Source: a virus. From it: 24,784 nt of DNA. Positions 5,231-24,368 of the stretch are shown here, in pieces. Both the position numbers and the translations under genes were made by a program. Location: positions 1 to 24,784 of IMG/VR virus record IMGVR_UViG_3300033146_003836; one strand, written 5' to 3'. The number at the start of each line of letters is the position of its first letter. Position 1 is the stretch's first letter. The notes beneath the pieces were generated by a model that was not told where the DNA came from, did no database searches, and saw only the letters and a program-made list of their open reading frames with translations.

Positions 5231-5242
5231 TATTATCTTTAC
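5231..5242 (-). promoter_or_regulatory. Putative late promoter element before the gp14-like gene
   Basis: The minus strand reads GTAAAGATAATA, 18 nt before the ATG, and it overlaps the stop codon of the preceding gene. It is identical over 12 bases to the copy in front of the fibre gene. Confidence 0.6.
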
Positions 5243-5616
5243 TGACAATCTTTATGTAGTCCCATAAATAATAAGTTAGCTGTTTCTCTATTCAAGGCGA
5301 ACGGAATATTTTGTAAAACACAAGTTCTTATTAGTGCTTGTATATCTGCCTCATGCCCAAGAGGTGTTTTTACATCTATTAAAAATATCACCTTATCTAT
5401 ATTACCATCTAGTATCTCTTTAGCTATATAGATATCTCCACCATCAGGCCCATGACCTAAAGTTTTAACATCTAATCCTGTTATATTCTTTATAATCAAT
5501 GCGGTTCCAGAAGTACCAACTAAGTTAAAGTTTTTAAGTTTCTCTTTATTATAATTAGCCCATTCGGCTATATCCATTTTTCTTGTATCATGTGCTATAA
5601 GTGCTATAGTTTTCAT
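5239..5616 (-). CDS. mgsA: Phage-encoded methylglyoxal synthase
   Basis: This enzyme family converts dihydroxyacetone phosphate to methylglyoxal and phosphate in the cytosol. The 125-residue product aligns by eye with E. coli MgsA at a constant offset of ten: His9-Asp10 (E. coli His19-Asp20), Lys13 (Lys23), Thr35-Gly37-Thr38 in the phosphate loop, GPDGGD with Asp61 at the catalytic Asp71 position, Asp81 (Asp91), His88 (His98) and Asp91 (Asp101). It is about 27 residues shorter than the E. coli protein and lacks the C-terminal segment with Arg150. It starts 8 nt after the adhesin stop with AGAGG as ribosome site, so it is probably translated from the adhesin transcript. Activity is likely from the retained residues but unproven. 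A related MGS-fold domain with another ligand is the alternative. Confidence 0.88.
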   Translation of the reverse strand: MKTIALIAHDTRKMDIAEWANYNKEKLKNFNLVGTSGTALIIKNITGLDVKTLGHGPDGGDIYIAKEILDGNIDKVIFLIDVKTPLGHEADIQALIRTCVLQNIPFALNRETANLLFMGLHKDCQ

Positions 5617-5637
5617 CTATTCCTCTATTCCTCTATT
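5617..5637 (-). repeat. Short tandem duplication making the mgsA ribosome site
   Basis: The 8-mer AGGAATAG occurs twice in tandem on the minus strand (5625-5632 and 5617-5624), after a partial third unit (AATAG). The distal copy provides the Shine-Dalgarno sequence just before the mgsA ATG, and the proximal copy holds the adhesin stop codon. Confidence 0.7.
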
Positions 5638-8600
5638 AAATCGTTAAAATTTTGTTTTGAGCTCCAGACTTCATCTGGAGTATCTACTTCTGAATCTGTT
5701 AATCCAGCTTCATACTCTCTTCTATGAGTTATTTCATTAAACTCTAAATCATCTCCTAGGTTTGTTCTATATAAGGTATTTGAAATAAGCTGTATTTTTA
5801 TTATTTCTGAGTCTAGTTCTCCATAGTCAATATTGCTACATCTACATATTTCTCCAGAGAGTATTAACCAACCTGAAACTAATGGTTTTATAGTTAGGTT
5901 TCCGCCATTAATTCCATTTAACAATATCAATCCTGAAGCTATATATTCTGTATCTACCTTACTTATAGCAGCTCCAGAAATAACAACAGGACTTAAAGAT
6001 ATATCATAATTATATTCAGATATACTTTCTGATTTTCCACTTATATTGATAGAAACTATATCGGTTTTATAGATAAATCCAGCTTGAATATTTTCTGAGC
6101 TTATATTCACTTTGACTTTTCCATAACATCTTTTATAAGTAGTAGATAATGCATTAGAGCTGGATATTCTAGTTCTAACAGAAGCTACCTCAATATCTAT
6201 AAAAATCTCTGGGTTTTTATCAGCTTCTCCAGCTATCTTTATAGAGCCTAAGTGACTCGATCTTCCTACGTATGAATATTCAGATGTCATTTCAACATCA
6301 GCTATAGGACTTATATTGATAAAACCAGAAGATGAAATATTAACAAAATCATTACTATCTGTTATATCTGCTGCTGTACCTTTACCCCAAGCTATACCTC
6401 CATCTCTAGAACTATAATTTACAGATATATCCTCATAATCAACATTACCATCTACTTCAACTGTGCATATAACTACAGGAGTATAATTTAAATTATATAT
6501 CCTATCTTCTAGATATATATTTATACCACCTGAAGATTCTGCAATAAAATTTTTAACCCCAAGCATATCATAAGTTCCAGTTATAAAACATTTTCCATAC
6601 ATACTATATAAATAATTATAAACCAATTCATTCTCTAAAGAGCCATCAGTACTAAGTCCACCAAATACCTCATATTCAAACGTTGGGATAAAGTCAACTT
6701 CTATATCATTATTAAATACCTCAGCATTACCATTTGAAAAATATCTATATTTATTCTGCTCGAAATACTCTGACTCCTCTCCGCCTATTTTTATAGATAG
6801 TGTTCCTACTGTCATATCATTATCGTATCGTAAAGCTGTTTTAGCAGACCCAAACACATTAGCTATACCAAACTGAGTTATGAAAAATTCTATTGGATCT
6901 GTAAAGTTTCCACTTAGTTTCACTACGTTGTCTACTATATCATATATATAATTTTTAGAATATATATTAGTTGTTTTATCGCTAGTAATTGAGATATTCT
7001 CATTATATGAGAAATCATTAAATCGATATATATTCTCTTCTTCGTATGTTTCTCCACCTAAAGCATTAATTCCACCATCACATATTGTGTTGTATGATTG
7101 ATAACATAAAGATGGGTCTAAAACACCATTTAATAATACAGTTCCTACAAAGTCTCTATAAATATAAAATCCATGTTCTATATCCTTTAGTATACCTATT
7201 CTAGTTCTTAATTTAGCAAAACCGCAATCTGGAGAATACGTGATCCTTTCTACATTAACGATATTTACTTTTGTTAATACCATATCTGGCTTTCTATTAT
7301 AGTCGACAAATAAACTAGCGACTCCATCTATTATTATTTTTTCAGCAACAACTCTTTTATCTACTATAACCTCTGCTTTATAACTTTTGCCGTTTGATAT
7401 TATAAAATTAGGATATGATAAAACAGGATTGTAAATAATACTTTCTTCTATAATATTAGAAAGATTAATATTTTTATCTTCTATTAATGAGTTTCTATAA
7501 ACTTTTCTATCACTCTCTATTGAAATATCTATACTATTAACAACAGTAATATTGTCATACATCATTTCTGCTGCAACTTTTTTACTACTGGTTGTTAATG
7601 ATATTATATTATTAGATAAGTATACAGGGTTATATTCTGTATTTATAAGTGTCGATACTTCTAATATGCTCTCTAGAGTTTCATAATTAGATTCAGTTAT
7701 AGATAGAGGATATAATTTTACAAAACCATTAGCATTATTGTTATTATATACTGCATCTCTATAAGCAGTTCCTGATAGATTTTTTGTTTTAGATATTATG
7801 TTTCCTATATAATATCTTGAAGCTTTTGTTTCACCTGATGTGTTAATTAATATTAAACTATTATAATTATATTCAACTTTAATCTCAAAATATCTTTGAG
7901 ATATCTTGATTGTTCCGTTAGGAATATATATAGCCTCTAAAGTATCACCTATATATATTAATCCTGCTACTACATCCTTTCTCCACTTTATAGATTTTCC
8001 AGTTATACTTACAACATTATATGAGTTTTGAGCTATAACCTCATCACTAATTGATACCATTTGTGTTGATGCTGTTGTAACATTTACAACCCGTAATGTT
8101 TCATTATAGGATATATTAACTACACCAGAACACCTAGTATAAAATATAGGTAATGGTGTTGTAATTAATTGCTCTATGATTTTTACTTTTGCAAACTCAT
8201 TAGACTCATTAATATCTAATACATTAAATAGGTCTTGTGAGTCTATGATTAATTTAGCAGTTTCATTACTTGAATTAAAAGTAACATCATCTATATCAAA
8301 CTTAATACCTAAGTTTATATTAACTTCGGACAAAAACGCAAATACGCTATCTTTTGATATTATATCATTATGGTTAGATAGTATCACTGATGCTTTTATA
8401 ACTCTAGGAGTATACTCTAAACCATACTTGCAAGAGCCAGACGTTTTTATTTTATCAACATCTGAAGCACAAATGAATTCTATTTTATTAGTGTTATATA
8501 TCTTAGTGAATACTTCTACATGATTAGAGTTAGCTCTATTAATAACAGGTATTGTATCTTCATTACTTAGTGAAATAATATTTACTTTCTGTGTGGATAC

Positions 8601-11600
8601 ATTATTTATTATTAGTTGCTCATAATTACCACTTGACTGTATATTGTTAACAGAGATTGCACTATTCAAATCAAGTTTAGTTTCAAATAAATCTACCCAT
8701 CTAATATAACCAGAAACCTCTTCATCTGTTGTATATATAACCTCATTTAAAACAATAACACCAGACGTTTTTAAAACTGAAATAGACTCTAACTCTATTT
8801 TCATCTGTGGTTGTGTTTCTTCATCTATTATCCAAGATTCAGAATTTTCATCCCAAAGATAATACACACCATCATTTGAACTACCAATTAACCAAGTATC
8901 ACCAGTATTACCAGTTGTTGGTAATTCATCTACAGAATTCAATACCCCCTGAACTCCTGTATTATTAGGTTGATATTCTGGAGTTAATATCCATAATCCG
9001 TTTTCTCCATAAGAAGCATCCCAAATATAATATTCTGGATCTTGAGGAGAGCCTACTAAATAAACTTCATTATCATAACTTCCAGAAGAAGGTAGTTCGT
9101 TTTTGCTATTAGCAAATCCACTGATGCCAGTGTTATTATTTAGCGGATTTGCTATAGGAACTAAATTTTCACCTCTTTTTTCCCAATATTTAGAAATAGG
9201 ATTATCTATTACATAATAAATATCACCTTGAGCTGTATCTAAAGGAACATCATCTAATGTAGCAACATTGCCAACTAATTGAGAACCTACTTTAATTAAT
9301 GTTGAATCATATACTAATGTAGCTGTTCCTTTAAAATCTGCTCCACCATATACATCAGGATAGTATTTACTTATACTTTCTCTTCTAACACTAATACCTT
9401 TTGTTTTTACTTTCACGCTATTGTCAAAAAATATATTTAAATTAGACATAGATGAAATTTTCAAAGGAATGATATAATCATTCGGTATAAAAACAAAATC
9501 AGAGACTCTTTCTGATTGAGATGATAGTTTAATTATTCCATTAGTTTCATTTTTATAATTAGTTTCTGTATATTGAGATATAACTATCGTTTTAACTAAT
9601 GTTTCTGTAGGTATACTGTTATAGACGATTGCTTTTTCTGACAGTATGTTGGTCTCAACACTTCCATAAGATCTTTCTACTATTTCGATATTAGAGACAG
9701 CAACTCCTGATGTTAAGAATTCTTCACCAGAAGGTATATTTCTAAAATCTATTATTCTTTCATTTGATATTTTAGTTGTTAGTTTAGCATAATCACAAGA
9801 ATAAAAATATAAAGCTCTTAAAGGATCATATAGAACCCCTTGATGTAAATTAGCATCAGCTTGAACTATGGCTGTTCCACCAATAATATCATTTATCTTA
9901 TAATTAACGAAATCATCTACACTTGAAGACCCATAAGATACTATTACTACTTCAGTATCTATATTTATATTTATAATATCTAACTCTACTATAGATGAGG
10001 TAGCTACCCCTCCTTTAAAAGCATCTGTGTTTGTTATTTCGGTATAATTATCTTTTGAGTATGTTATAGTTGTTATAGTTGAGACTATATTTATATTACC
10101 ATATTCAGCTATATATTTAAATTCCGTATAGTCAAACAATACTGCTTCTGTAATGTTTATTTTTCCAGATGGATCTAATATAGCATTTACTTCTTCTACT
10201 ACACTTTCTCCTTCTGTATCAACTTTAACCAAAATATCATTATTGAGATAAATATTCCTATCAGATTTATTTTCTCCTAAAATATTAATATACTGAATAT
10301 AATCTGAATCATTATATAATACTTCTTCTTCAACATCAAGTTTCTGAAATCTATTATTTGTTATTGCTATAGCATTATCACTAATGATTGTATATATAAT
10401 TTTTTTAATAGCACTACCATTTGAAAAGAATATTCCTGATACTTCTACATCTGTTATGAACTCATTATGTAAAGAAGGAGTTCCTAAAGCTTTAATGTAT
10501 TGAATATAATCTGAGTCATTATACTTATTAACTCTATCAGATTCGATATTAATAATAATTGGTGAGTTATCAGTAGGGTCATTATATAAAACAGAATGTT
10601 CTATATCAACACTACTATCAAAAATATTAACTATAACTAATGCTTTGTTATCTACATAATGAGACTCTCTAAGATATATATCAGAGCCTGTTGAGTTGAC
10701 AACTCCTCCAGATATTATATTAATATAATTGCTAATATTTAGCTCTGTTATAGTTCCGCTACTTAAAGTTTTTCCACCAACAGCATCATTGAAATAAACA
10801 TCGACTGTATAGCCATCTGCTATTTCATGTGATACAACAGCGTTTCCAAAACTTAAGCTACCTGTTATATCTGGAATGTAAATATTTTCTTGAGTTCCTA
10901 AAGTCCTACCTGATGTAATACCTCCAGTGAAGAACCTTACAAATTCGATAGTGTGAGGTATGATATAAGGTGTTTTATTAGAATATAAAAACTTAACACT
11001 TTCTTCTGTTAATATTATGAACTCTCTTTCCAAATTACCAGATGTTAATCCTATAGATCCGTCCATTTCTCTTTCAAAAATTATAATTGAATCAGATTCT
11101 ATTTTAGTATCTATGTTAGCATTATTTTCTCTTTCAAAAATAATTGTAGAATTTGAATTGATATCAGTATTTATTTCTCCACCATTATCCGATACAACAT
11201 AATGTCGTGCTAAACTAGCACATTCTAATGAATTATAATCTATATATTGTTGAGCATCCTTAATATTCTTATATTCATTAGCTTGCCAATTTTCCGTTAA
11301 TACAGCTTTTTTTATTCTTACTTCAGCAATAACACCTTTAAAAGAATTCCAATTAGATTCAATCAAATTATCTTCATTATAATATTTACCAAAAGTTATA
11401 GAGTCATTATTTCCAGACCAAGGGAATGCTTTTTGAGTTTCTTTCTTAGTATCTCCATTAACAGAAATACCTCTCACTTCTGTATTATAATCTCTTGTTA
11501 ATCCTATATACGAGAATCTTTCAACATTATCTATTTCAGTTATAGCATCACTCTTAACATCATCAGACATTGTAAAACTTAACTTAACTTTATTCTCTAT

Positions 11601-14063
11601 TTTTAAATTAATACTATCTGATACAAATAAGCCTTTTGTTCCATCAATGCTTTCATAATTTTGCGACCAAAGAGATATTGTTAAATCATCTTGATTAAGA
11701 TCCATTTTTTCAAATTGACCATATAAAGCATCTTCTTTATCATAAAATAAAACACCTGCCCCAATAGAGTTGTTTACACTATTGGTTCCAGCATCCATAT
11801 TATAAGTATTTATATGTCTATTATTTCCAGAATAATCAAGCATTGGAGCACCATCATCTGGAGTTCCACTCATATGCCATACAGCCTCATAATCAGACCA
11901 TACTTCTTCTGAATTCCAATTAGGGTTAGTATCAAATATAGAAAAATCAAATCTTAATTCAGAGATTTTTCCTGTTGTTTTTATCTTAAGTTCATCTCCA
12001 ACTGCTAAGTATATCTTATTAGTAGTATTATACATTTTCATATTAGCTGATACTAAATGTGTATCAAAATGAGACATTTTAATATTATTAATATATATAT
12101 CATATAGTAATCGGTCACTATTACTAGCTAATATTTCTGTTGTAATATCATAAAACCCTGATACTCCATCCCAAGAAGTTATAGCTTCAGCAGTCATATA
12201 AGCATTTGCTTTTACACATTTACCAGATTTAAACTTTGAGTTATTTACAACAGAAGCATTAGTATAAGATAAATTTTCAGCATTAATTCTTTTTATAGGT
12301 TGTCCATATGCTGGATTAAATCTTATAGGTGCTACAGCGTTACCATAGTAGATATATAAAGATGTAGATTCATCATGTTTAAGTTTTGGTAATAAAACAA
12401 AACCTTTAAGTTGAGTCATATTTTGATCTTGTGGCTCTAGCCAATCAATATCACAACTAGAAGAATTTTTACCAAATGATATTTCATTCCATTCTTGAGT
12501 CCAATTAACAGGAACTTCTATTTCTTGATAAGAACTCCAAGATCCAGTAGGAGGCAAATTAATTGTATATAAATCATCATTTATATATATATTGGTTGCA
12601 GATGTAGAGCCTCCATTTGAATATCTTATCTTTAAATCATGAGTTCCTAATTCTACTATTCTTATTTCTGAGAATTTTATATAATCATTCGTTCCATCTA
12701 AATAACCACATCTATATCCACCTTCAGCATTTGTGTCATAAATAAGTTTAGCATTACCATTTAATATTATTTTATAAGCTCCAGCATATCTTGTTTGATT
12801 GATATGTTGTCTATATAAAAATCTTTCAAATGGTAATCTCTCTCCATATTCATCAGTTATTAATACGTCATTACCATATTGAGCTGCTTCATTTAAACAT
12901 TGATCATATAAATTTAATAGAAACGGAAATCTTCTAAATTCATCATTACCTATAATTTCAGAACCTTTTATATCAAATTTGATTCTTTTATTATAATCAC
13001 TATGTTCTAATCTCCATCCTGTTTCTTCTGAGATTAAACTTGGGTTTATTTCTTGATTAGAAATAGAAATGAAGTCTAAATTTCTATCATTGTTATATTG
13101 AGCGAAAATATAACTATCCGTGATATCTGGATTTGTTGAAACTCTTATATCTGATAGGCTTCCTTTGAAACTATATATAGTATTATAATACCAGTTACCT
13201 ATATTAATCTTATTAGCATTATTATTCTTTATATAACTACCACGAATAATATGTGAACTATCTAAAATCCCATCTATAAATATTCTTAATAATTCAGTAT
13301 TAGCGTTCCAATCTACAACAATATAGTACCATCTGTTTTTAGATAATTCAACATTAGAGTATTTACTTTTTGAACTTTCATTAGTTGTTACTCTAGTATA
13401 TAATTTCCTATTAGCACCCAACCCTATATAAAAATCTTTTATCTGACCGAATATATCATCATCTGTGTTTTCATATTCATCTCTATTTAACCATAAAGAC
13501 ATACTTAAATTAGTAGAGCCAGAGACAGCTATAGGTTGTGTTTGATAAAACTGATCGTTACTATCATAAAGATGAGTTCCATATTCAATAGGATTATTAG
13601 GGTTAAATCCTAATTCATTTGTTTTATTATAATTATAACCTTTTCTGGTTAAATGATAGTCTCCTGAATTAGTTTTTAATAAAGAAGGTGATGTTTCAGG
13701 ATATAACATATCCATCTTTGAAACAAAATCGTATAGTCCATAAGTATTTTGAGAGTCTTGTTCATATGTAAAAGTATTATTACCATAATATAAATATAGT
13801 TCGTTAGACGAATTATTTAAATCAATTTTACATTTTATATTAAAATTACCTTCTTTATCCGCATAATCAATATAACTTGGTAATTGATTTCCTGATGAAT
13901 CAACAACTATTAAATCTGATAAATCAGATTTAGAATAATTTAATAAATCATATTCCTTTCTTAATTTAATAGATAATGTAAAATTGTTTATTGAGTTGTT
14001 TATATATGATTGTTTTATACTAATCTTCTTTCTGAATTTCCAATCTGTATTATACCAAGACAT
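5625..14063 (-). CDS. Giant tail fibre/adhesin with paired DUF2341 and LamG-like domains
   Basis: The 2812-residue protein is probably the main host-binding fibre. Residues 6-105 resemble DUF2341 (start WKFRKKISI, end LYLYYGN), and 150-335 resemble a LamG/concanavalin-type lectin (SMSLWLNRD, RWYYIVVDW, FKGSLSDIRV). Residues 350-575 are a second DUF2341-like unit, split by a carbohydrate-binding-like insert (about 430-545). Residues 720-935 are a second LamG-like unit (AVWHMSG, LDYSGNNRH, FKGVIAEVRI). Residues 950-2812 are a long run of beta-rich units; about 1590-1755 hold tail-fibre repeats of the LPTTGNTGDTWLIG type. No peptidase, lyase or transmembrane motif was seen. ATG at 14063 was chosen over the adjacent TTG because GGAG sits 7 nt upstream. 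A late-type element lies 17 nt before it and mgsA follows at 8 nt. The adhesin role comes from domain type and late position; the partner is unknown. Confidence 0.85.
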   Translation of the reverse strand: MSWYNTDWKFRKKISIKQSYINNSINNFTLSIKLRKEYDLLNYSKSDLSDLIVVDSSGNQLPSYIDYADKEGNFNIKCKIDLNNSSNELYLYYGNNTFTYEQDSQNTYGLYDFVSKMDMLYPETSPSLLKTNSGDYHLTRKGYNYNKTNELGFNPNNPIEYGTHLYDSNDQFYQTQPIAVSGSTNLSMSLWLNRDEYENTDDDIFGQIKDFYIGLGANRKLYTRVTTNESSKSKYSNVELSKNRWYYIVVDWNANTELLRIFIDGILDSSHIIRGSYIKNNNANKINIGNWYYNTIYSFKGSLSDIRVSTNPDITDSYIFAQYNNDRNLDFISISNQEINPSLISEETGWRLEHSDYNKRIKFDIKGSEIIGNDEFRRFPFLLNLYDQCLNEAAQYGNDVLITDEYGERLPFERFLYRQHINQTRYAGAYKIILNGNAKLIYDTNAEGGYRCGYLDGTNDYIKFSEIRIVELGTHDLKIRYSNGGSTSATNIYINDDLYTINLPPTGSWSSYQEIEVPVNWTQEWNEISFGKNSSSCDIDWLEPQDQNMTQLKGFVLLPKLKHDESTSLYIYYGNAVAPIRFNPAYGQPIKRINAENLSYTNASVVNNSKFKSGKCVKANAYMTAEAITSWDGVSGFYDITTEILASNSDRLLYDIYINNIKMSHFDTHLVSANMKMYNTTNKIYLAVGDELKIKTTGKISELRFDFSIFDTNPNWNSEEVWSDYEAVWHMSGTPDDGAPMLDYSGNNRHINTYNMDAGTNSVNNSIGAGVLFYDKEDALYGQFEKMDLNQDDLTISLWSQNYESIDGTKGLFVSDSINLKIENKVKLSFTMSDDVKSDAITEIDNVERFSYIGLTRDYNTEVRGISVNGDTKKETQKAFPWSGNNDSITFGKYYNEDNLIESNWNSFKGVIAEVRIKKAVLTENWQANEYKNIKDAQQYIDYNSLECASLARHYVVSDNGGEINTDINSNSTIIFERENNANIDTKIESDSIIIFEREMDGSIGLTSGNLEREFIILTEESVKFLYSNKTPYIIPHTIEFVRFFTGGITSGRTLGTQENIYIPDITGSLSFGNAVVSHEIADGYTVDVYFNDAVGGKTLSSGTITELNISNYINIISGGVVNSTGSDIYLRESHYVDNKALVIVNIFDSSVDIEHSVLYNDPTDNSPIIINIESDRVNKYNDSDYIQYIKALGTPSLHNEFITDVEVSGIFFSNGSAIKKIIYTIISDNAIAITNNRFQKLDVEEEVLYNDSDYIQYINILGENKSDRNIYLNNDILVKVDTEGESVVEEVNAILDPSGKINITEAVLFDYTEFKYIAEYGNINIVSTITTITYSKDNYTEITNTDAFKGGVATSSIVELDIININIDTEVVIVSYGSSSVDDFVNYKINDIIGGTAIVQADANLHQGVLYDPLRALYFYSCDYAKLTTKISNERIIDFRNIPSGEEFLTSGVAVSNIEIVERSYGSVETNILSEKAIVYNSIPTETLVKTIVISQYTETNYKNETNGIIKLSSQSERVSDFVFIPNDYIIPLKISSMSNLNIFFDNSVKVKTKGISVRRESISKYYPDVYGGADFKGTATLVYDSTLIKVGSQLVGNVATLDDVPLDTAQGDIYYVIDNPISKYWEKRGENLVPIANPLNNNTGISGFANSKNELPSSGSYDNEVYLVGSPQDPEYYIWDASYGENGLWILTPEYQPNNTGVQGVLNSVDELPTTGNTGDTWLIGSSNDGVYYLWDENSESWIIDEETQPQMKIELESISVLKTSGVIVLNEVIYTTDEEVSGYIRWVDLFETKLDLNSAISVNNIQSSGNYEQLIINNVSTQKVNIISLSNEDTIPVINRANSNHVEVFTKIYNTNKIEFICASDVDKIKTSGSCKYGLEYTPRVIKASVILSNHNDIISKDSVFAFLSEVNINLGIKFDIDDVTFNSSNETAKLIIDSQDLFNVLDINESNEFAKVKIIEQLITTPLPIFYTRCSGVVNISYNETLRVVNVTTASTQMVSISDEVIAQNSYNVVSITGKSIKWRKDVVAGLIYIGDTLEAIYIPNGTIKISQRYFEIKVEYNYNSLILINTSGETKASRYYIGNIISKTKNLSGTAYRDAVYNNNNANGFVKLYPLSITESNYETLESILEVSTLINTEYNPVYLSNNIISLTTSSKKVAAEMMYDNITVVNSIDISIESDRKVYRNSLIEDKNINLSNIIEESIIYNPVLSYPNFIISNGKSYKAEVIVDKRVVAEKIIIDGVASLFVDYNRKPDMVLTKVNIVNVERITYSPDCGFAKLRTRIGILKDIEHGFYIYRDFVGTVLLNGVLDPSLCYQSYNTICDGGINALGGETYEEENIYRFNDFSYNENISITSDKTTNIYSKNYIYDIVDNVVKLSGNFTDPIEFFITQFGIANVFGSAKTALRYDNDMTVGTLSIKIGGEESEYFEQNKYRYFSNGNAEVFNNDIEVDFIPTFEYEVFGGLSTDGSLENELVYNYLYSMYGKCFITGTYDMLGVKNFIAESSGGINIYLEDRIYNLNYTPVVICTVEVDGNVDYEDISVNYSSRDGGIAWGKGTAADITDSNDFVNISSSGFINISPIADVEMTSEYSYVGRSSHLGSIKIAGEADKNPEIFIDIEVASVRTRISSSNALSTTYKRCYGKVKVNISSENIQAGFIYKTDIVSINISGKSESISEYNYDISLSPVVISGAAISKVDTEYIASGLILLNGINGGNLTIKPLVSGWLILSGEICRCSNIDYGELDSEIIKIQLISNTLYRTNLGDDLEFNEITHRREYEAGLTDSEVDTPDEVWSSKQNFNDLIEE
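8810..9285 (-). repeat. Tail-fibre repeat block inside the adhesin
   Basis: It encodes about three imperfect units of roughly 45-55 residues. Two have the form NNTG(I/V)xG, then LP(S/T)(S/T)G, then (Y/W)LVG or (Y/W)LIG, then YY(I/L)WD and a closing W. A more divergent first unit begins VATLDDVPLDTAQGDIYYV. This pattern recurs in many phage tail fibres and likely forms a stalk or carrier segment between the N-terminal lectin-like part and the C-terminal region. Confidence 0.65.
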
Positions 14064-14080
14064 CAATTATGCTCCTTAAC

Positions 14081-14586: not shown

Positions 14587-14598
14587 TTTTATCTTTAC
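14587..14598 (-). promoter_or_regulatory. Putative late promoter element before the 128-aa virion gene
   Basis: The minus strand reads GTAAAGATAAAA, one base different from the adhesin copy, 48 nt before the ATG. It overlaps the 3' end of the upstream endonuclease gene. Confidence 0.55.
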
Positions 14599-15668
14599 AA
14601 CAGCAAAGAATTCATTATATTATATATGCTGTCATAATCTGTATATGATATTCTAAATATTTTAATATTATTATCTTCACAATATTGATTTTTAATTAAA
14701 TCAGATGCTTCTATTTGTTCTAACCCTTTTTTGCCACCAAAAAAACTTATCTCTTTAAAATGTTGTTCTCCATCAAATTCAATACAAGTATTTAAATTTG
14801 GTAGATAGAAATCAAACCGCTTATTACCTAAATCTTTAAATTTCTTTTCTCTTTCAAATTCAATATTATTTTCAATTAAATAGCGATATATTCTTTCTTC
14901 GCCTCTTGAAGATTTACATATAGGACAACCATGATGATTTAAATGATGAATCGGTTTCTGCTTAAACACATCATGTTTTTCGCATATAATCTTTACTTTA
15001 GTTTTATTATTAATATAATTAACTAAACTGTAGTCATATTTATTATCATGGACTAATTTAGCTTTAGTTATAAATTCTTCTGTAGTTGAACGTTTTACAT
15101 TTGCACATTTAGGACAACCAACATTATCCATATGATGAAAAGGCATTTGTTTAAATATACCGTGTTCTCTACATATAATTTTCACTTTAGTTTTAGCGTT
15201 TATATAATTAACTAAAGAATAATCATATTTATTATCATGGACTAACTTACTTCTTTTGATAAACTCTTCAGTAGTTAGCTTTTTTACATTTGCACATTTA
15301 GGACAACCATGCTGATTTAAATGATGAAAAGGATACTGAATAAATACATCATGTTTTTTACATATGATCTTTACTTTAGTTTTAGCATTAATATAATCCA
15401 CTAAACTGTAGTCATATTTATTATCATGGATTATATTAGCTTTAGTTATAAATTCTTCTGTAGTTTTCTTTTTTACTTCTTTGCACTTAGGACAACCATG
15501 TCGACTTAGATGAGAATAAGGCATTTGAGAAAACACATCATGTTTTTTACATATAATCTTTACTTTAGTTTTAGAGCCTTTATAGTCAACTAAACTATAG
15601 TCATATTTATTATCATGAGTTATATTAGCTTTAGTTATAAATTCTTCAGTAGTATACTTTTTTGACAT
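14595..15668 (-). CDS. Homing-type endonuclease with four zinc-binding repeats
   Basis: The product is 357 residues from the chosen ATG. Residues 6-257 are four tandem 63-residue units of the form TTEEFITKA..HDNKYDYSLV.Y...TKVKIIC..H..F...P..H....GCPKC, i.e. a DUF723-like zinc-binding DNA-recognition module. Residues 258-357 are a Vsr/EDxHD-type nuclease domain: RIYRYLIENNIEFERE, FDFYLP, and CIEFDGEQHF with the acidic and His residues of the active site. Such enzymes cut a DNA target and spread their own gene. An upstream in-frame ATG (15683) would add MIILY but falls inside a strong promoter. The chosen ATG begins 6 nt after that promoter's -10 box and has no Shine-Dalgarno sequence, so the message may be leaderless. 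The gene sits among late virion genes, on the same strand. Confidence 0.88.
   Translation of the reverse strand: MSKKYTTEEFITKANITHDNKYDYSLVDYKGSKTKVKIICKKHDVFSQMPYSHLSRHGCPKCKEVKKKTTEEFITKANIIHDNKYDYSLVDYINAKTKVKIICKKHDVFIQYPFHHLNQHGCPKCANVKKLTTEEFIKRSKLVHDNKYDYSLVNYINAKTKVKIICREHGIFKQMPFHHMDNVGCPKCANVKRSTTEEFITKAKLVHDNKYDYSLVNYINNKTKVKIICEKHDVFKQKPIHHLNHHGCPICKSSRGEERIYRYLIENNIEFEREKKFKDLGNKRFDFYLPNLNTCIEFDGEQHFKEISFFGGKKGLEQIEASDLIKNQYCEDNNIKIFRISYTDYDSIYNIMNSLLL
14898..15653 (-). repeat. Four tandem 189-nt coding repeats in the endonuclease
   Basis: Units of 63 codons are conserved at DNA level, for example the recurring TTATTATCATG on the plus strand. They encode repeated Cys-His...Cys-x-x-Cys knuckles. 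Their number could vary by recombination. The third unit is the most divergent in its second half. Confidence 0.85.
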
Positions 15669-15673
15669 ATATA

Positions 15674-15702
15674 ATATTATCATAAAAATAAACTTTTGTC
15701 AA
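15674..15702 (-). promoter_or_regulatory. Sigma70-type early promoter before the four-repeat endonuclease
   Basis: TTGACA (15697-15702), a 17-nt spacer and TAATAT (15674-15679) lie on the minus strand. The box and spacer match the + strand promoter at 23254 at 22 of 23 positions. The expected transcription start falls on or next to the ATG of the gene. Confidence 0.82.
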
Positions 15703-15706
15703 GTGT

Positions 15707-16579
15707 TTATAATTTTTTTAGAATATTATATATGTTGTCATAATCTGTATATGGTATTCGTAATACTTTAATATTTTTGTTTCTACAAAAACTATCTTTA
15801 AGTTTGTCATTAGTTTTTATTTTCTCTAAACCTTTTTCACCACCGAAAAATTCTATTGCCTTGAAATGTTGAACCCCATCATATTCTATAACTACATTCT
15901 TTTTAGATAGATAGAAATCAAATCTTTTTTTATCTAACCCATCAAAGATTTTTTCTCTAACATATTCTATATTATTTTCTATAAGATATTGTTCGACTCT
16001 AGCTTCACCTTTTGAAATTCCACATTTAGGACAACCGATTCCTTTAAGATGTTTTTTAGGATCTACACTAAACACTCCATGAATCGAACAAATTATATCA
16101 ACGCTACCTTTCACGTTTTTGATTTTTGAGTAATCGTATCGTTCTTTATGAATGATATCAGCTCGTTTTTTAAACCTGATAGGAGTCAATTTTATTTCAT
16201 TTTCACATTTAGGACATTCTTGACCTCTCATATGTCTATCTAATGGAAGTGTAAATTCTCCATGAGTTTCGCATTTGATTTTTATTCTTGATGCTATAGT
16301 TTTAACACCTGAGAAATCATATTCATACTTATTTTTATATTTCTTCCGTATGTCTTTAATATACGAATCAATTCGTTCTTCTTTTTTACATTCAGAGCAT
16401 TCATAACCTTTAGATAAATGATCTGTAGGAGTTACAGAGAATTCTCCATGTTTCCTACAGACTATATTTAATTTATCTTTAGAGCCTTTATATTCTATCT
16501 TAGAATAAAGATATTTGTTTCCATATATCTTTTTAGCTTTACGAATAAATTTAGTTTTATTAGTAGTCTTTCTTTTCAT
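15707..16579 (-). CDS. Homing-type endonuclease with three zinc-binding repeats
   Basis: The 290-residue product is a paralogue of the gene immediately downstream. It has about three diverged knuckle units (residues 5-65, 70-130, 131-190) with the IxCxxHGxF...H....CxxC layout, then a Vsr/EDxHD-type nuclease domain (190-290) with RVEQYLIENNIEYVRE, RFDFYLS and IEYDGVQHF. The 3' ends of the two genes are nearly identical in DNA (around 15725-15760 and 14620-14655). It has no clear ribosome site. Its ATG lies 20 nt inside the end of the 193-aa gene, so translation may depend on coupling. The units are more divergent than those of the neighbour, suggesting an older copy. Confidence 0.86.
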   Translation of the reverse strand: MKRKTTNKTKFIRKAKKIYGNKYLYSKIEYKGSKDKLNIVCRKHGEFSVTPTDHLSKGYECSECKKEERIDSYIKDIRKKYKNKYEYDFSGVKTIASRIKIKCETHGEFTLPLDRHMRGQECPKCENEIKLTPIRFKKRADIIHKERYDYSKIKNVKGSVDIICSIHGVFSVDPKKHLKGIGCPKCGISKGEARVEQYLIENNIEYVREKIFDGLDKKRFDFYLSKKNVVIEYDGVQHFKAIEFFGGEKGLEKIKTNDKLKDSFCRNKNIKVLRIPYTDYDNIYNILKKL

Positions 16580-19782: not shown

Positions 19783-19811
19783 TTGACGAAAGTTTAATTT
19801 TTTTGTATAGT
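19783..19811 (+). promoter_or_regulatory. Sigma70-type promoter of the 84-aa gene
   Basis: TTGACG, a 17-nt spacer (AAAGTTTAATTTTTTTG) and TATAGT. The predicted start is about 9 nt before the ATG, at the edge of the Shine-Dalgarno sequence AAGGAG. Upstream at 19767-19779 is GTAAAGATATAAT, a partial + strand match to the late element. Confidence 0.78.
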
Positions 19812-19826
19812 TAATAAGGAGAAAAT

Positions 19827-20081
19827 ATGAGCGAAAATATATTACATGACTATATGAGAGAATGTAGAAAGTTTGGAATACAATCTCTTTGTGTGAGTGG
19901 TCTTGGAAATGATATAGAAATTCAAGTCGAATGTTTATCTGATAAAACGCCAGAGTATGACAAAATGACTACTATGAATTTATATGATGAAGATGAATTA
20001 ATAATAAGATATAGTCGTATGTTAAGATATTCATATTTAAATTTTGAAAATGTAAAATTAGAGATATTAAAATACACTTGA
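19827..20081 (+). CDS. Small acidic protein of unknown function (early cluster)
   Basis: This 84-residue protein begins MSENILHDYMRECRKFGIQ, with a beta-rich middle (DIEIQVECL) and an acidic stretch (NLYDEDELI). It has no signal peptide, membrane segment or metal motif. The ribosome site AAGGAG stands 5 nt before the ATG, and the gene has its own early-type promoter. Its stop codon TGA is part of the -35 box of the next promoter. It is a typical host-takeover-size protein of a phage early region, but nothing in it names a target. Confidence 0.75.
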   Translation: MSENILHDYMRECRKFGIQSLCVSGLGNDIEIQVECLSDKTPEYDKMTTMNLYDEDELIIRYSRMLRYSYLNFENVKLEILKYT

Positions 20082-20106
20082 CAAAAATTAATTTTTTTGA
20101 TATACT
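20078..20106 (+). promoter_or_regulatory. Sigma70-type promoter of the transglycosylase-chemoreceptor operon
   Basis: TTGACA, a 17-nt spacer (AAAATTAATTTTTTTGA) and TATACT. The -35 box contains the stop codon of the 84-aa gene. The predicted start is about 19 nt before the GTG of the transglycosylase gene. Confidence 0.8.
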
Positions 20107-20131: not shown

Positions 20132-20983
20132 GTGATAGAAAAAATAGAAAAAACAAATAAGGTGGAAGTGGTGAAAGAAAATAGAGTATATAAAAGAAAA
20201 GTATCTATGTGGCACGGATTAGGTTTCATTACTGGATTATTAAGTTATTTGGTATTAGCTCTTTTTATGTCTTCTATGAATATGAAGAAAGAGCTAATTA
20301 TAGAAGAAAAAAAAGAGCTGGAAAGTTTCACTGAAGCTATATCTAAGCTAGAGGGGAAATATAACAAAATAGACTTAATTCCAGAGAACCTTAGACACAC
20401 AATAGAGCTAGAAGATAAAAAAGCAGAAGATTATATAATTAATAAAGATGATGTAAAAATACATATTATAAATACAAAGTATGAAATGTTTCTTATGAAT
20501 AAATACAAAGTCCCAATTTATCTTAGAAACTATACTACCAAATTATGTAGATACTACAATATAGAATTAACTAAATTCTTAGGAATGATTCAAATAGAAA
20601 GTTGGTGGGGTAAACATAAAGATTATAAGAAATTTACTATTGATAGAACATATGGACCTAATAAAGAATATGCTGATATAGGTCTTGCTCAACTAAGCAG
20701 TAGATACTTTACTTTTTTTGAAGAAGAACATTTTGATTTTCAATTACTTTATTCATTAGGTTATGAAAGAAATAAATTTGATGCGAAAGATGATATAATA
20801 AACCTACAAGTAGCAGCATCTTATTTCTCATGGCTACAAAGTTATTTTCATGGAGATATTGAATCATCATTGGTAGGATATAATGCTGGGCCGTATGTTT
20901 CCAAGATACCTTTGAGAAGTCTTATATACACGAAGGCTATAATGAATAATTATGAGTATGTAGAACAAGCGAAATTATATTAA
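20132..20983 (+). CDS. Membrane-anchored lytic transglycosylase (SLT type)
   Basis: This 283-residue protein cuts the glycan strands of peptidoglycan. Residues 1-27 are charged and cytoplasmic, 28-47 form one membrane segment (GLGFITGLLSYLVLALFM), and about 52-75 look like a coiled stalk. The catalytic domain runs from about 135 to 275 with the family motifs in order: Glu156 in MIQIES, GLAQLS at 184-189, and YNAG at 250-253. The domain would face the periplasm. The GTG start was chosen because AGGAG lies 10 nt upstream and an ATG-initiated version would lose the N-terminal tail. The membrane segment lacks a clear cleavage site, so it is an anchor or a signal-arrest-release type. It is the first gene of the operon that contains the chemoreceptor. 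Lysis enzyme or entry-site wall remodeller are both possible. Confidence 0.85.
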   Translation: MIEKIEKTNKVEVVKENRVYKRKVSMWHGLGFITGLLSYLVLALFMSSMNMKKELIIEEKKELESFTEAISKLEGKYNKIDLIPENLRHTIELEDKKAEDYIINKDDVKIHIINTKYEMFLMNKYKVPIYLRNYTTKLCRYYNIELTKFLGMIQIESWWGKHKDYKKFTIDRTYGPNKEYADIGLAQLSSRYFTFFEEEHFDFQLLYSLGYERNKFDAKDDIINLQVAASYFSWLQSYFHGDIESSLVGYNAGPYVSKIPLRSLIYTKAIMNNYEYVEQAKLY

Positions 20984-20995
20984 GGAGAGATAAAT

Positions 20996-21187
20996 TTGAA
21001 AAGAGTTATTGTTAAAGATTTTAATGTCAGGATGTTACATCATAATGTAAAAGTAGGAAGGTTAATTCCTATGGAAAATATTATCAAAGTTGTAGAAAAC
21101 AAAGATGGTAAGGTTGAGTTTTTATATGCGTATAAAACACACTTTACAACAACTGATGAGCTGGAAAGATATACTATAGAGGTATAA
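20996..21187 (+). CDS. Small protein of unknown function between transglycosylase and chemoreceptor
   Basis: The 63-residue basic protein starts at TTG with a strong AAGGAGAG 6 nt upstream. It has no membrane segment. The sequence suggests a small beta-rich fold (KRVIVKDFNVRML, VGRLIPMENIIKVVENKDGKVEFLYAY). It begins 12 nt after the transglycosylase stop and ends 1 nt before the chemoreceptor ATG, so all three are cotranscribed and probably coupled. Confidence 0.72.
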   Translation: MKRVIVKDFNVRMLHHNVKVGRLIPMENIIKVVENKDGKVEFLYAYKTHFTTTDELERYTIEV

Positions 21188-21188
21188 G

Positions 21189-22928
21189 ATGAATATAGTT
21201 AGAAAATATAATACGATAATAGGAAGATTTGCTATTATCACAGGGTTTGTTTTGTTCTCTGTTATTACGGCTGGTCTAATATTTCAAGAGCGAGCTTTTA
21301 TCAAAATAGTTTCAGAGGAAATTATAAAAGGAAAACAAGAACAGATAAATTCTATAGCAGACGATTTAAAATTTGAGATAAAATCAGCTATATATACAAA
21401 AGCTAAATCAAAAAATCTGATTGGTAATTCTTATTTATATATAATAGACACTAGTGGTGTCTTTTATTATCATCCAAAAGTTGAACTTATAAATAAGAAT
21501 TACTCAACAGCAGATTTTTTCAAGAAGATAGTTTCTTTAAAAAGTAATACTGGGAATATACATTATATATTTGAGGGAATATCTAAAACTGGAATATTTA
21601 AAAGAATTGGAGATAAGTTTTATGTACTTACATACAATGATTCTGAGTTATATTCTATAAATAAGACTATAAATACATTCTTGTTTATAGGAATGTTTGT
21701 TGTTTTATTATTATCTGTATTCCTAATATTCTTTTTGGATATGATCGTTACTAATAAAATAATAAAAATAAATCAAGAACTAAAGAATAAATCAAATGGC
21801 GATTTTACAGATATACCTAGCTTTTGGTATAAAAATGAAAATAAATTTGATATTTTTCACTCTTTAACTAGATACACAATTGATTTATTTACTAGATTAA
21901 GTAAAACAATTTTAGATATTAAAAACATATCTAAAACACTAGAAAACAAATTTGAAATTATAAATAATGTTGTAGATGATAATGAGATAGTTCTAAAAGA
22001 AACAGTAAATACAGTTAATAACATAGAAAAAAATGTGAATAATGTAGTTGGTGTAATAACAGAGAAATTCAATTCAATACAGGAAGATATGAATAAATCG
22101 GTTGAAGTTGTAGAAAATGAAGTGTATAATCAACAAGCATTTACAGAAGAGTCTACTGCGGCTGTAGAACAGATGGTATCTAATATAAAAAGTATTAATA
22201 ATAATAACAATATTTCCAAGAGTAAAATAGATAGCCTTGTTAATCTTGGTGCTTCTGGATTAGAGCATCAAACTAAACTAAAAAAATCTGTAGAAAACAC
22301 TATATTAGCTATGAGTGAGTTAGTTAAGACGAATAAACTTATAACTAATATATCAAATCAAACATCTATATTATCTATAAATGCAGCAATAGAATCTGCT
22401 CATGCTGGAGAATATGGAAAAGGATTTGCTGTTGTCTCTGGAGAAATTGGAAAATTAGCAGAGAACTCAGCAAAACAATCTAAAGCTATAGATTCTCTAA
22501 CAAAAGAGTTATTAAAAGATTTAGATGGAATGTCAACTATATCTAATATAACATATAATTCATATAATGACATTATAGAGGTTATTAAAGATGTCGATAG
22601 AATATCATCTGAAATATCTTCATCATTACAAGAACAGACTACAGGTTCTGAAGAGATAGTTGTCTCTATGGTAGAACTAAAAGATAGTTTTCATAATGTG
22701 AATAAGGCTATAGAAAAGACATCTGAATCTAGTATATTTCTTAAAGATGGTGTTAAGGAATTAAATAGTTCTTGCGAGACTATTAAAGACTCAATGGTTG
22801 AGCTGACTGTTGAAACAAATAAAACTATAGAAAGTTCAAATAAGATAAAAATATCTATCGATGACTCATCAGATGCTTTATCTGATTTAATAGATGATTT
22901 AAAATTCTTTAAAATAAAGGATATATAG
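21189..22928 (+). CDS. Phage-encoded methyl-accepting chemotaxis protein
   Basis: This is a 579-residue transmembrane chemoreceptor. Membrane segments lie at about 11-32 and 163-186, with a periplasmic sensor between them. The sensor resembles a small Cache-type domain (YLYIIDTSGVFYYHPKVEL, then IFKRIGDKFYVLTYN). After a short linker comes a long helical hairpin whose tip, about 386-430 (TNISNQTSILSINAAIESAHAGE, GKGFAVVSGEIGKLAENS), is the CheA/CheW-binding signature of the family. An arginine usual in the EVRKLA motif is Gly (EIGKLA). No HAMP domain is obvious, and no CheR-tether pentapeptide is present at the C-terminus (ends KIKDI). The hairpin looks full length, so signalling capacity is plausible. 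A GAGG site precedes the ATG. Residue features are seen; the host-steering role is inference. Confidence 0.93.
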   Translation: MNIVRKYNTIIGRFAIITGFVLFSVITAGLIFQERAFIKIVSEEIIKGKQEQINSIADDLKFEIKSAIYTKAKSKNLIGNSYLYIIDTSGVFYYHPKVELINKNYSTADFFKKIVSLKSNTGNIHYIFEGISKTGIFKRIGDKFYVLTYNDSELYSINKTINTFLFIGMFVVLLLSVFLIFFLDMIVTNKIIKINQELKNKSNGDFTDIPSFWYKNENKFDIFHSLTRYTIDLFTRLSKTILDIKNISKTLENKFEIINNVVDDNEIVLKETVNTVNNIEKNVNNVVGVITEKFNSIQEDMNKSVEVVENEVYNQQAFTEESTAAVEQMVSNIKSINNNNNISKSKIDSLVNLGASGLEHQTKLKKSVENTILAMSELVKTNKLITNISNQTSILSINAAIESAHAGEYGKGFAVVSGEIGKLAENSAKQSKAIDSLTKELLKDLDGMSTISNITYNSYNDIIEVIKDVDRISSEISSSLQEQTTGSEEIVVSMVELKDSFHNVNKAIEKTSESSIFLKDGVKELNSSCETIKDSMVELTVETNKTIESSNKIKISIDDSSDALSDLIDDLKFFKIKDI

Positions 22929-23257
22929 TGTTTGTATCATATATAGAATTCAAAGATACAAACTGGAATATCTGTGATATTTGCGAAATTAAAACAGCGG
23001 AATTTCATATATTAAAACAACTTAATAAAATCAAGAGAGGTATTCCTATAGACGCTTCTCTTGATCTTATTAAACATATAAAACAATTTAAAAAAGTTTA
23101 TGTCTCCTATTTAACCCTAAATGAATTAAGAGAAATATCTATACACTCTAAAGGTATAGACGAAATCATAGATAAGCTAACAGAATTAGAAATAGAAAAA
23201 ATCTTTTGTCATAAATGTATACGTATTATCTTTGCTGAAGTTGACGGAAATACTTGA
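22928..23257 (+). CDS. Protein with two CxxC pairs, translated from the chemoreceptor operon
   Basis: The 109-residue protein has two CxxC pairs at 16/19 and 94/97, which could bind one zinc ion between the ends of the chain. The middle is helical and basic (about residues 25-60). The start is GTG, sharing one base with the chemoreceptor TAG (TAGTG), with AAAGGA upstream, so the two are translationally coupled. Its stop TGA lies in the -35 box of the next promoter. The function is unknown. Because it is coupled to the chemoreceptor, a partner role is worth considering. Confidence 0.7.
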   Translation: MFVSYIEFKDTNWNICDICEIKTAEFHILKQLNKIKRGIPIDASLDLIKHIKQFKKVYVSYLTLNELREISIHSKGIDEIIDKLTELEIEKIFCHKCIRIIFAEVDGNT

Positions 23258-23282
23258 CAAAAGTTTATTTCTATGATATAAT
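23254..23282 (+). promoter_or_regulatory. Consensus sigma70-type promoter of the 71-aa/replication genes
   Basis: TTGACA, a 17-nt spacer (AAAGTTTATTTCTATGA) and TATAAT, a perfect match to both consensus boxes at the optimal spacing. The predicted start is about 13 nt before the ATG, next to the AGGAG ribosome site. Confidence 0.9.
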
Positions 23283-23301: not shown

Positions 23302-23517
23302 ATGTTAACAAGAGATTTGCTTATAGCTGTAGTAAAAGAATTAGAAAAGAATAATATAAGATTAGCATTTTGTGCAAATAAAGAATTAGGATTAGATGGA
23401 CCGTTTGTAGGTATAAATGCTGAACAGGTTGAAGAGATTATAAATTATGATATAGCATATCGTATGGAACATGGAGAACCTAACGCTTTAAGGGAGGTTA
23501 CGCAGTGTCAAAAATAA
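23302..23517 (+). CDS. Small protein of unknown function upstream of the replication gene
   Basis: The 71-residue protein starts MLTRDLLIAVVKELEKNNI with AGGAG 6 nt before the ATG. The first 20 residues look like an amphipathic helix. There are two Cys, neither in a metal-like pair. It has the strongest promoter in the window and overlaps the next gene by 13 nt. No family was recognised. Confidence 0.72.
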   Translation: MLTRDLLIAVVKELEKNNIRLAFCANKELGLDGPFVGINAEQVEEIINYDIAYRMEHGEPNALREVTQCQK

Positions 23518-24368
23518 AAAACTTTGCGTATGATGACGAGACTATAGATTGGAGAGTTCCGATCGAAACATCTCTTTTAATAGATAAAAATATACCAGAT
23601 AATGCTTTAAGATTATATTTAGTTCTTCTATCTTATGCAAGAAATAAAACTACAGCATTTCCATCAAGAGAAACATTAGCTAATAATATAGGTAAAACTA
23701 CTAGAACAGTAGATACACTTAAAAATAAATTAAAACAACTTGGCTTATTAAGTTGGGAAAGTAAATTTAATGGTAGTAATATATATAATTTCTATACTTT
23801 ATTAAAATATGAGCCTATAATTAAAGGTGTTACTAAACCAAAGAAAATTAAGAAAGTTCTATTAACTTCTAAGAAAGAGAATTCTATTCCAAAAGAAAAA
23901 AACGAGCCTATAACTAAAGAAGAAGGGTTTGTATATACACCAGAGAAGAAGCCTAAGAGTAGTTCATCTAAATACGAGCCTATAATAAAAATCTTTAAAG
24001 AAAAGTATAAGGAAGTTTGTGATAATCATAGAGATGAATTAGAAAGATTTACTACATCTGGATGGATAGATAATCCTATATATATTCCAACAGTAGGTGA
24101 TTTCAGAAATCTTAAATGGTATGAAGAAACATATGGAGAAGCAGGACTTAAAAAAATAGAAATAGGTTTCAATTTTCTTAGAGAGTTTTTAGTTGAAGAG
24201 GTAGGTTATGGTTTGTTTTATAATGGAAACGGAACAGAACTTGTACCAACAATAAGTCTATTCTTAAAAGCTAAAATAGAACACGATAAGCTTATAAGAT
24301 TCGCAACAGATGAACTTGAAATTATAAGAAGAAAACAAATAGTTGAAGAAAGGAAAAAGGTAGGATAA
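23505..24368 (+). CDS. Replication-type winged-helix protein
   Basis: The product has 287 residues. Residues about 28-95 form a winged-helix domain of the phage/plasmid replication initiator type (HTH_36-like): NALRLYLVLLSYAR, then AFPSRETLANNIGKTTRTVDTLKNKLKQLGLL. A basic, Lys-rich linker (about 110-150) leads to a C-terminal helical region (about 160-287) with no ATPase motif. Such proteins usually bind origin DNA or load the helicase, but a transcription regulator is possible. The GTG start overlaps the 71-aa gene by 13 nt and is preceded by AGGGAGG. Its last base overlaps the ATG of the next gene. Confidence 0.75.
   Translation: MSKIKNFAYDDETIDWRVPIETSLLIDKNIPDNALRLYLVLLSYARNKTTAFPSRETLANNIGKTTRTVDTLKNKLKQLGLLSWESKFNGSNIYNFYTLLKYEPIIKGVTKPKKIKKVLLTSKKENSIPKEKNEPITKEEGFVYTPEKKPKSSSSKYEPIIKIFKEKYKEVCDNHRDELERFTTSGWIDNPIYIPTVGDFRNLKWYEETYGEAGLKKIEIGFNFLREFLVEEVGYGLFYNGNGTELVPTISLFLKAKIEHDKLIRFATDELEIIRRKQIVEERKKVG

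Follow-up and report, generated by a model that had tools for sequence, protein, structure and literature searches.

A spirochaete-type chemoreceptor gene embedded in a phage genome

Results

A chemoreceptor gene in a compact phage gene cluster

The window, which is the whole stretch of DNA analyzed here, is a linear virus record of 24,784 bp with a GC content of 28.6%. An intact ORF at positions 21189–22928 of the plus strand starts with ATG and encodes a full-length chemoreceptor, or methyl-accepting chemotaxis protein (MCP), of 579 aa. The gene belongs to a plus-strand unit with the order transglycosylase, 63-aa ORF, receptor and 109-aa ORF. The first gene (20132–20983) encodes a membrane-anchored lytic transglycosylase of 283 aa, which has an N-terminal hydrophobic stretch and matches PF01464 (SLT) over the cut-off (E = 1.6e-5). 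The 63-aa ORF (20996–21187) has no family match of note, and the 109-aa ORF (22928–23257), also without a family match, contains two CxxC pairs that may bind zinc. The transglycosylase and the 63-aa ORF are separated by 12 nt (20983 to 20996), the 63-aa ORF and the receptor by 1 nt (21187 to 21189), and the start of the 109-aa ORF overlaps the receptor stop by 1 nt at 22928. This arrangement agrees with a preliminary description of the DNA, in which the receptor was placed in a phage operon with a wall hydrolase and two small genes.

The receptor gene lies between phage genes: structural genes and the transglycosylase to one side, and a replication initiator to the other. The former include a contractile tail sheath gene, a phage hallmark (731–2686, minus strand; phrog_23, E = 1e-61), and the latter encodes an HTH_36 protein (23505–24368, plus strand; PF13730, E = 3.3e-13; phrog_270, E = 8.3e-10). 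The preliminary description had also held that the receptor is not a stray host fragment. The divergence of the receptor, its tight 1-nt spacing and the phage-type or orphan character of the genes to either side argue against such a fragment or a chimera, and the gene lies within the phage genome rather than in a host flank. The GC3 of the receptor gene is 16%, matching the phage, and its codon usage is the least correlated with the other genes of the window (0.853).

Three near-identical sigma-70-type promoter matches with 17-nt spacers occupy intergenic positions on the plus strand (19783–19811, 20078–20106 and 23254–23282) and share sequence beyond the consensus. The site at 20078–20106 (TTGACA-17-TATACT, with TG before the -10 element) is the putative promoter of the transcription unit that contains the receptor. 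The next one, at 23254–23282, is a perfect 12/12 match with an extended -10 element (TTGACA-17-TATAAT with TG) and precedes a 71-aa ORF and the replication gene. Judged by their consensus matches, the three sites are probably early phage promoters.

Several other genes of the window have recognizable domains. A 2813-aa fibre-like protein (5625–14066, minus strand) contains Laminin_G_3, DUF2341 and CBM_6 domains close to the N-terminus, and no protein of the phage collection matches it. A methylglyoxal-synthase-like gene (5239–5616, minus strand; PF02142 MGS, E = 4.7e-9) lies among the phage structural genes and has relatives in other records of the phage collection at about 36–44% identity. 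Two adjacent genes at 14595–16579 (minus strand) encode repeated treble-clef zinc-finger units (DUF4379/DUF723-like) and a common nuclease-like C-terminal region, and are possibly mobile endonuclease genes.

Domain organization of the receptor

The protein belongs to the MCP family. It matches Pfam MCPsignal (PF00015) with 72.3 bits against a cut-off of 34.6 (E = 5.9e-20) and the PHROGs family phrog_8572 with an E-value of 1.4e-27. Two strong hydrophobic segments, TM1 at about aa 9–33 (21213–21287) and TM2 at about aa 160–186 (21666–21746), bracket a sensor of ~125 aa. The intact frame, the family match and the two segments bear out the preliminary identification of a full-length chemoreceptor. 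In an AlphaFold model (mean pLDDT 75), TM1 is followed by a mixed sheet of Cache/PAS-like type, and TM2 by a helix-connector-helix linker that leads into a helical region of 350 residues; the hairpin is mostly modelled at 80–90, and the sensor is modelled poorly. VIA-align superimposed the model on Thermotoga 2ch7 (Z = 17.0; 309 residues; 4.2 A) and on 6s1k, the core signalling unit of E. coli (Z = 13.2; 102 residues; 1.4 A; 32% identity). Because unrelated coiled coils also scored highly in this search, the identification of the receptor rests on the sequence evidence.

The putative periplasmic sensor (about aa 34–158; 21288–21662) carries a Cache signature between TM1 and TM2 (YLYIIDTSGVFYYHPK...). 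In a small search, it matched the sensor of the spirochaete receptor L052 with 40% identity over 45 aa (E = 1.9e-5; shuffle z = 7.3), and the predicted models have a Cache/PAS-like topology at low confidence. In contrast, no Pfam Cache model matched the receptor, and a PDB fold search with the sensor alone returned nothing at E <= 0.001, although the Cache sensors Mlp37 and Tlp3 were among its weak matches. An hhalign comparison with the sCache_3 sensors of phages gave no match. The Cache-like sensor of the preliminary description is favoured by the L052 match and the models, and finds no counterpart in the Pfam and fold searches; the domain appears Cache-like.

The stretch that follows TM2 (NKIIKINQELKNKSNGDFTD-IP...FDIFHSLTRYTIDLFTRL; about aa 187–240; 21747–21908) aligns onto the HAMP domain of spirochaete receptors. 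It retains both helices and the GD(L/F)T element, has lost the DEIG motif, and carries an insert of five residues in the connector in the alignment. The segment forms a helix-connector-helix in the AlphaFold model, and Pfam HAMP gives no score on the window receptor. On alignment and model, this region is best described as a divergent HAMP-like linker, and the earlier suggestion that the receptor lacks a HAMP domain is not supported.

The signalling hairpin and the methylation regions

The hairpin has the same register as that of spirochaete receptors. Compared with 43 mostly spirochaetal receptors, the window receptor is missing no insertion and has a single extra residue over 340 coiled-coil residues. 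Its full-length identity to the approximately 40 aligned receptors is only ~20%, and retention of the register despite this divergence points to selection on structure. The open frame and the preserved heptad register leave no signs of a pseudogene.

The tip, which is the CheA/CheW contact region, spans aa 385–430 (22341–22478). Its positions are given in Tsr numbering, and we presume for N381, E385, R388, E391, V398, E402 and R404 the roles that these residues have in Tsr. The equivalents of N381, E385, E391, V398 and E402 match the consensus, in line with the intact tip that had been noted before, and the R388 equivalent is His, as in 39 of the 43 receptors. Among 37 tip-region positions that are conserved at >=80%, the window receptor departs from the consensus at seven, mostly conservatively; the cellular spirochaete rows depart at 0–5 of these positions. 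The non-conservative departure is R404G, at a position occupied by Arg in 40 of the 43 rows. Two other receptors also have Gly there, namely L031, which is from a spirochaete, and that of a viral contig of 394 kb (L129), and this single Arg-to-Gly exchange is the only one that a check for contact-abolishing substitutions brought up. The conserved contact positions predict binding to CheA/CheW and control of the kinase.

Methylation-type segments are present on both helices. The N-helix segment covers aa 317–334 (E327-Q328; 22137–22190), and the C-helix segment covers aa 477–490 (Q481-E482; 22617–22658). The latter contains SSSLQEQTTG at aa 477–486, which satisfies the strict pattern [ASTG]2-xx-[EQ]2-xx-[ASTG]2; any such match arises in 3% of shuffles. 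E327 and E482 line up with highly conserved Glu residues of spirochaete receptors, and the conserved site sequences predict that both helices are methylated. All 44 aligned receptors, including those from cells, lack an NWETF-type CheR tether. The absence of a tether had been noted correctly, and it is uninformative. The further proposal of a locked, non-adapting receptor does not follow, because the methylation sites are conserved and the tether is absent from all aligned receptors.

Affinity to spirochaete receptors

A scan of 84,980 prokaryote species genomes with the tip placed 77 of the 79 best loci in Spirochaetota. A tree of 155 rows, whose sampling is weighted to spirochaetes, nests the window receptor among spirochaete receptors with moderate support (SH-aLRT values of 80, 89 and 87 at successive forks). 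The branch leading to the window receptor is long (1.78), and no other receptor in the tree shares more than 36% identity with it. Across 393 spirochaete genomes, the closest full-length cellular receptors are only about 25–30% identical, suggesting an old acquisition. The spirochaete-type hairpin makes a spirochaete the probable host, likely rather than proven, and in this respect the scan and the tree uphold the host clue drawn earlier from the hairpin.

No close phage relative was found in IMG/VR or the phage collection when the receptor, the sheath, the transglycosylase, an 819-aa protein and the 2813-aa protein were used as queries. The window sheath had matches in 11 of the 393 spirochaete genomes, all of them distant. 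One sheath-bearing stretch is a phage fragment of 27% GC binned with a spirochaete genome (L119; G023:C2; 6714 bp), which carries a 719-aa tail sheath that is a distant relative of the window sheath (29% identity) and two large endonuclease-like genes.

Chemoreceptors in other large phages

A scan of IMG/VR with the tip profile returned 309 MCP-encoding stretches, of which 79 loci were kept. Many short stretches among them may derive from bacterial genomes or prophage flanks. A single intact receptor was observed in each of several jumbo-size contigs with phage hallmarks, and the phage-like contigs span 190–504 kb. The 198-kb contig L120 and the 329-kb contig L123 encode a phage-type DNA polymerase, a helicase, a ligase and NrdD, together with a baseplate wedge protein in L120 and UvsX in L123. 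The receptors of both contigs have spirochaete-type tips in the tree, a feature shared with the window receptor, and differ from it in their dCache_1 or sCache_3 sensors and canonical HAMP domains. The L120 receptor is the best viral match over the sensor and hairpin of the window receptor (27% over 514 columns), and no structural gene of the window was detected in the stretches of L120 and L123 that were read. A search for the window sheath in other MCP-bearing phages, which had no positive control and is uninformative, found nothing.

Terminase genes accompany receptors in further contigs: one of 229 kb (L142), one of 286 kb in which the terminase is 5 kb from the MCP, one of 210 kb with an additional weak sheath match, one of 504 kb in which the MCP adjoins a tail-collar gene, and two of about 195 kb with soluble 290-aa MCPs. 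A terminase by itself is weak evidence of a phage, because phrog_2 (terminase) finds matches in control genomes as well. Phage-encoded gyrase B and gyrase A adjoin the chemoreceptor in L142 (1392–7010, plus strand). The soluble MCPs of ~290 aa, without membrane segments, form a clade (L134, L143 and L138/L140/L141) in which two contigs have a terminase; the contigs of the clade have 26% GC and span about 84–229 kb, and the MCP matches lie near position 10000 (8370 in L143). Across the signalling region, three of the copies, each from a different record, do not differ in sequence.

An isolated Vibrio jumbo phage, vB_VmeM-Yong XC31, encodes a dCache-HAMP receptor of 610 aa whose annotation reads hypothetical (QAX96201.1). 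The record of Microcystis phage MaAM05 (L002; MW495066.1; 274 kb) was set aside as a case of a phage MCP. It contains an MCP, thiL, ispD and ruvA, no terminase match was found, the neighbouring genes look cellular, and the record may represent a bacterium that was wrongly labelled as a phage. It is resembled by many short 'phage' records that lack annotation and have MCP matches.

Neither CheW nor ribosomal protein S12 was found in the 13 MCP-bearing records searched (the window record, which is a genome fragment, and 12 others), whereas control genomes match both. The sensors of the phage receptors are of dCache, sCache_3, 4HB and 4HB+PAS types or are absent, and the receptors are spread over separate clades of the 155-row tree. 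These differences in sensor type and clade indicate several independent captures. Chemoreceptors could be a recurrent viral gene class. In that case, large phages that infect spirochaetes, vibrios and other hosts would have captured MCPs independently (dCache, single Cache_3, four-helix-bundle, PAS-containing and soluble types) and would take over the navigation of infected hosts without a CheW of their own; we put this generalization at somewhat less than even odds.

Discussion

The window receptor resembles the receptors of Treponema and other Spirochaetota in its two membrane segments, putative periplasmic Cache-type sensor, HAMP position and methylation positions, as well as in hairpin length and register, the 'AAHAGE'-type tip and the lack of an NWETF tether. 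Unlike them, it is phage-encoded, has a short single sensor, a divergent HAMP and the R404G exchange, and is only about 25–30% identical to its best cellular match.

We propose, with a probability of roughly 0.55, that the phage acquired a spirochaete-type receptor long ago and has kept it functional, and that the protein joins the CheA/CheW array of the host and retunes swimming during infection. The gene would probably be transcribed early by host RNA polymerase, together with the transglycosylase, from the strong sigma-70-type promoter. The receptor would then insert in the inner membrane, its hairpin tip would enter the host array, and its Cache-like sensor would provide a new input to flagellar control. 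Infected cells would show an altered swimming bias or respond to a cue chosen by the phage. The full-length anatomy, phage context, spirochaete affinity and conserved tip and methylation positions are observed; expression, array insertion, a ligand and a benefit to the phage are parts of the proposal that we infer. Without CheW in the window record or the 12 others, the receptor would depend on partners supplied by the host; with an intact contact tip, an intact methylation region and a sensor of its own, entry into the host array is the simplest reading. The presence of such genes in several large phages makes an effect on swimming more plausible. The seven tip departures, R404G among them, and the lowest codon-usage correlation count against the proposal, as does the fragmentary state of the record, since this phage may encode a CheW elsewhere.

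The main alternative to retuning is that the phage poisons the array. A receptor with fixed output, or one acting as a CheA/CheW sink, would stop infected cells from navigating and leave them in constant run or stop. The loss of a widely conserved Arg at position 404, the connector insert in the divergent HAMP and the sensor-less 290-aa MCPs of other large phage-like contigs would all suit such a protein. However, the same Gly occurs in L031, and the window receptor still has its complete sensor, its two membrane segments and its methylation consensus, none of which is needed for mere titration; we consider poisoning unlikely.

Still less probable is a role outside motility, either as a superinfection-exclusion or envelope factor acting with the transglycosylase or in a chemosensory pathway with a non-flagellar output. 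In favour of this role, the receptor gene shares its transcription unit with two orphan ORFs and the gene of a membrane-anchored transglycosylase, but a purely envelope function would not conserve the CheA/CheW contact tip and the methylation region, and large phages elsewhere have their receptors beside tail-collar, gyrase or terminase genes. We give the least weight to an accidental passenger, that is, a recently captured host gene or a chimera of the assembly that serves no function in the phage. The somewhat atypical codon usage and the apparent stray host MCPs in short records of IMG/VR and the phage collection are what such a passenger would predict. The phage-type or orphan neighbours joined by 1-nt spacing and overlap, the phage-like GC3 and the intact frame and register argue against it, and the long branch with its low identities is not that of recent host DNA.

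Viruses are known to rewire host metabolism; steering where an infected cell swims would be host control of a different kind. The genes of the window, XC31 and the jumbo-size contigs make such control directly testable, since it would depend on one membrane protein whose readout is well understood, and a receptor gene of this sort is present in an isolated phage, XC31. The same set gives a hint as to which hosts uncultured spirochaete phages infect, and viruses may repeatedly borrow receptors to alter the movement of the cells they infect. The XC31 protein, like the window receptor, is a full-length receptor in a phage and matches phrog_8572. Unlike it, the XC31 protein has a dCache_1 sensor and a canonical HAMP and belongs to another branch of the tree, suggesting a separate capture.

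No paper describing phage-encoded chemoreceptors was found in the open-access literature. MCPs named in papers on T. denticola and Pectobacteriaceae prophages are host genes rather than phage receptors. The nearest report concerns phages from glacier ice, which carry motA/motB auxiliary genes and whose viral genes were proposed to alter host motility (PMC8290583). The motA/motB products belong to the stator and act on torque, whereas the window receptor is a sensor and would act on chemosensory input. The matching PHROGs family, phrog_8572, is unannotated in that collection.
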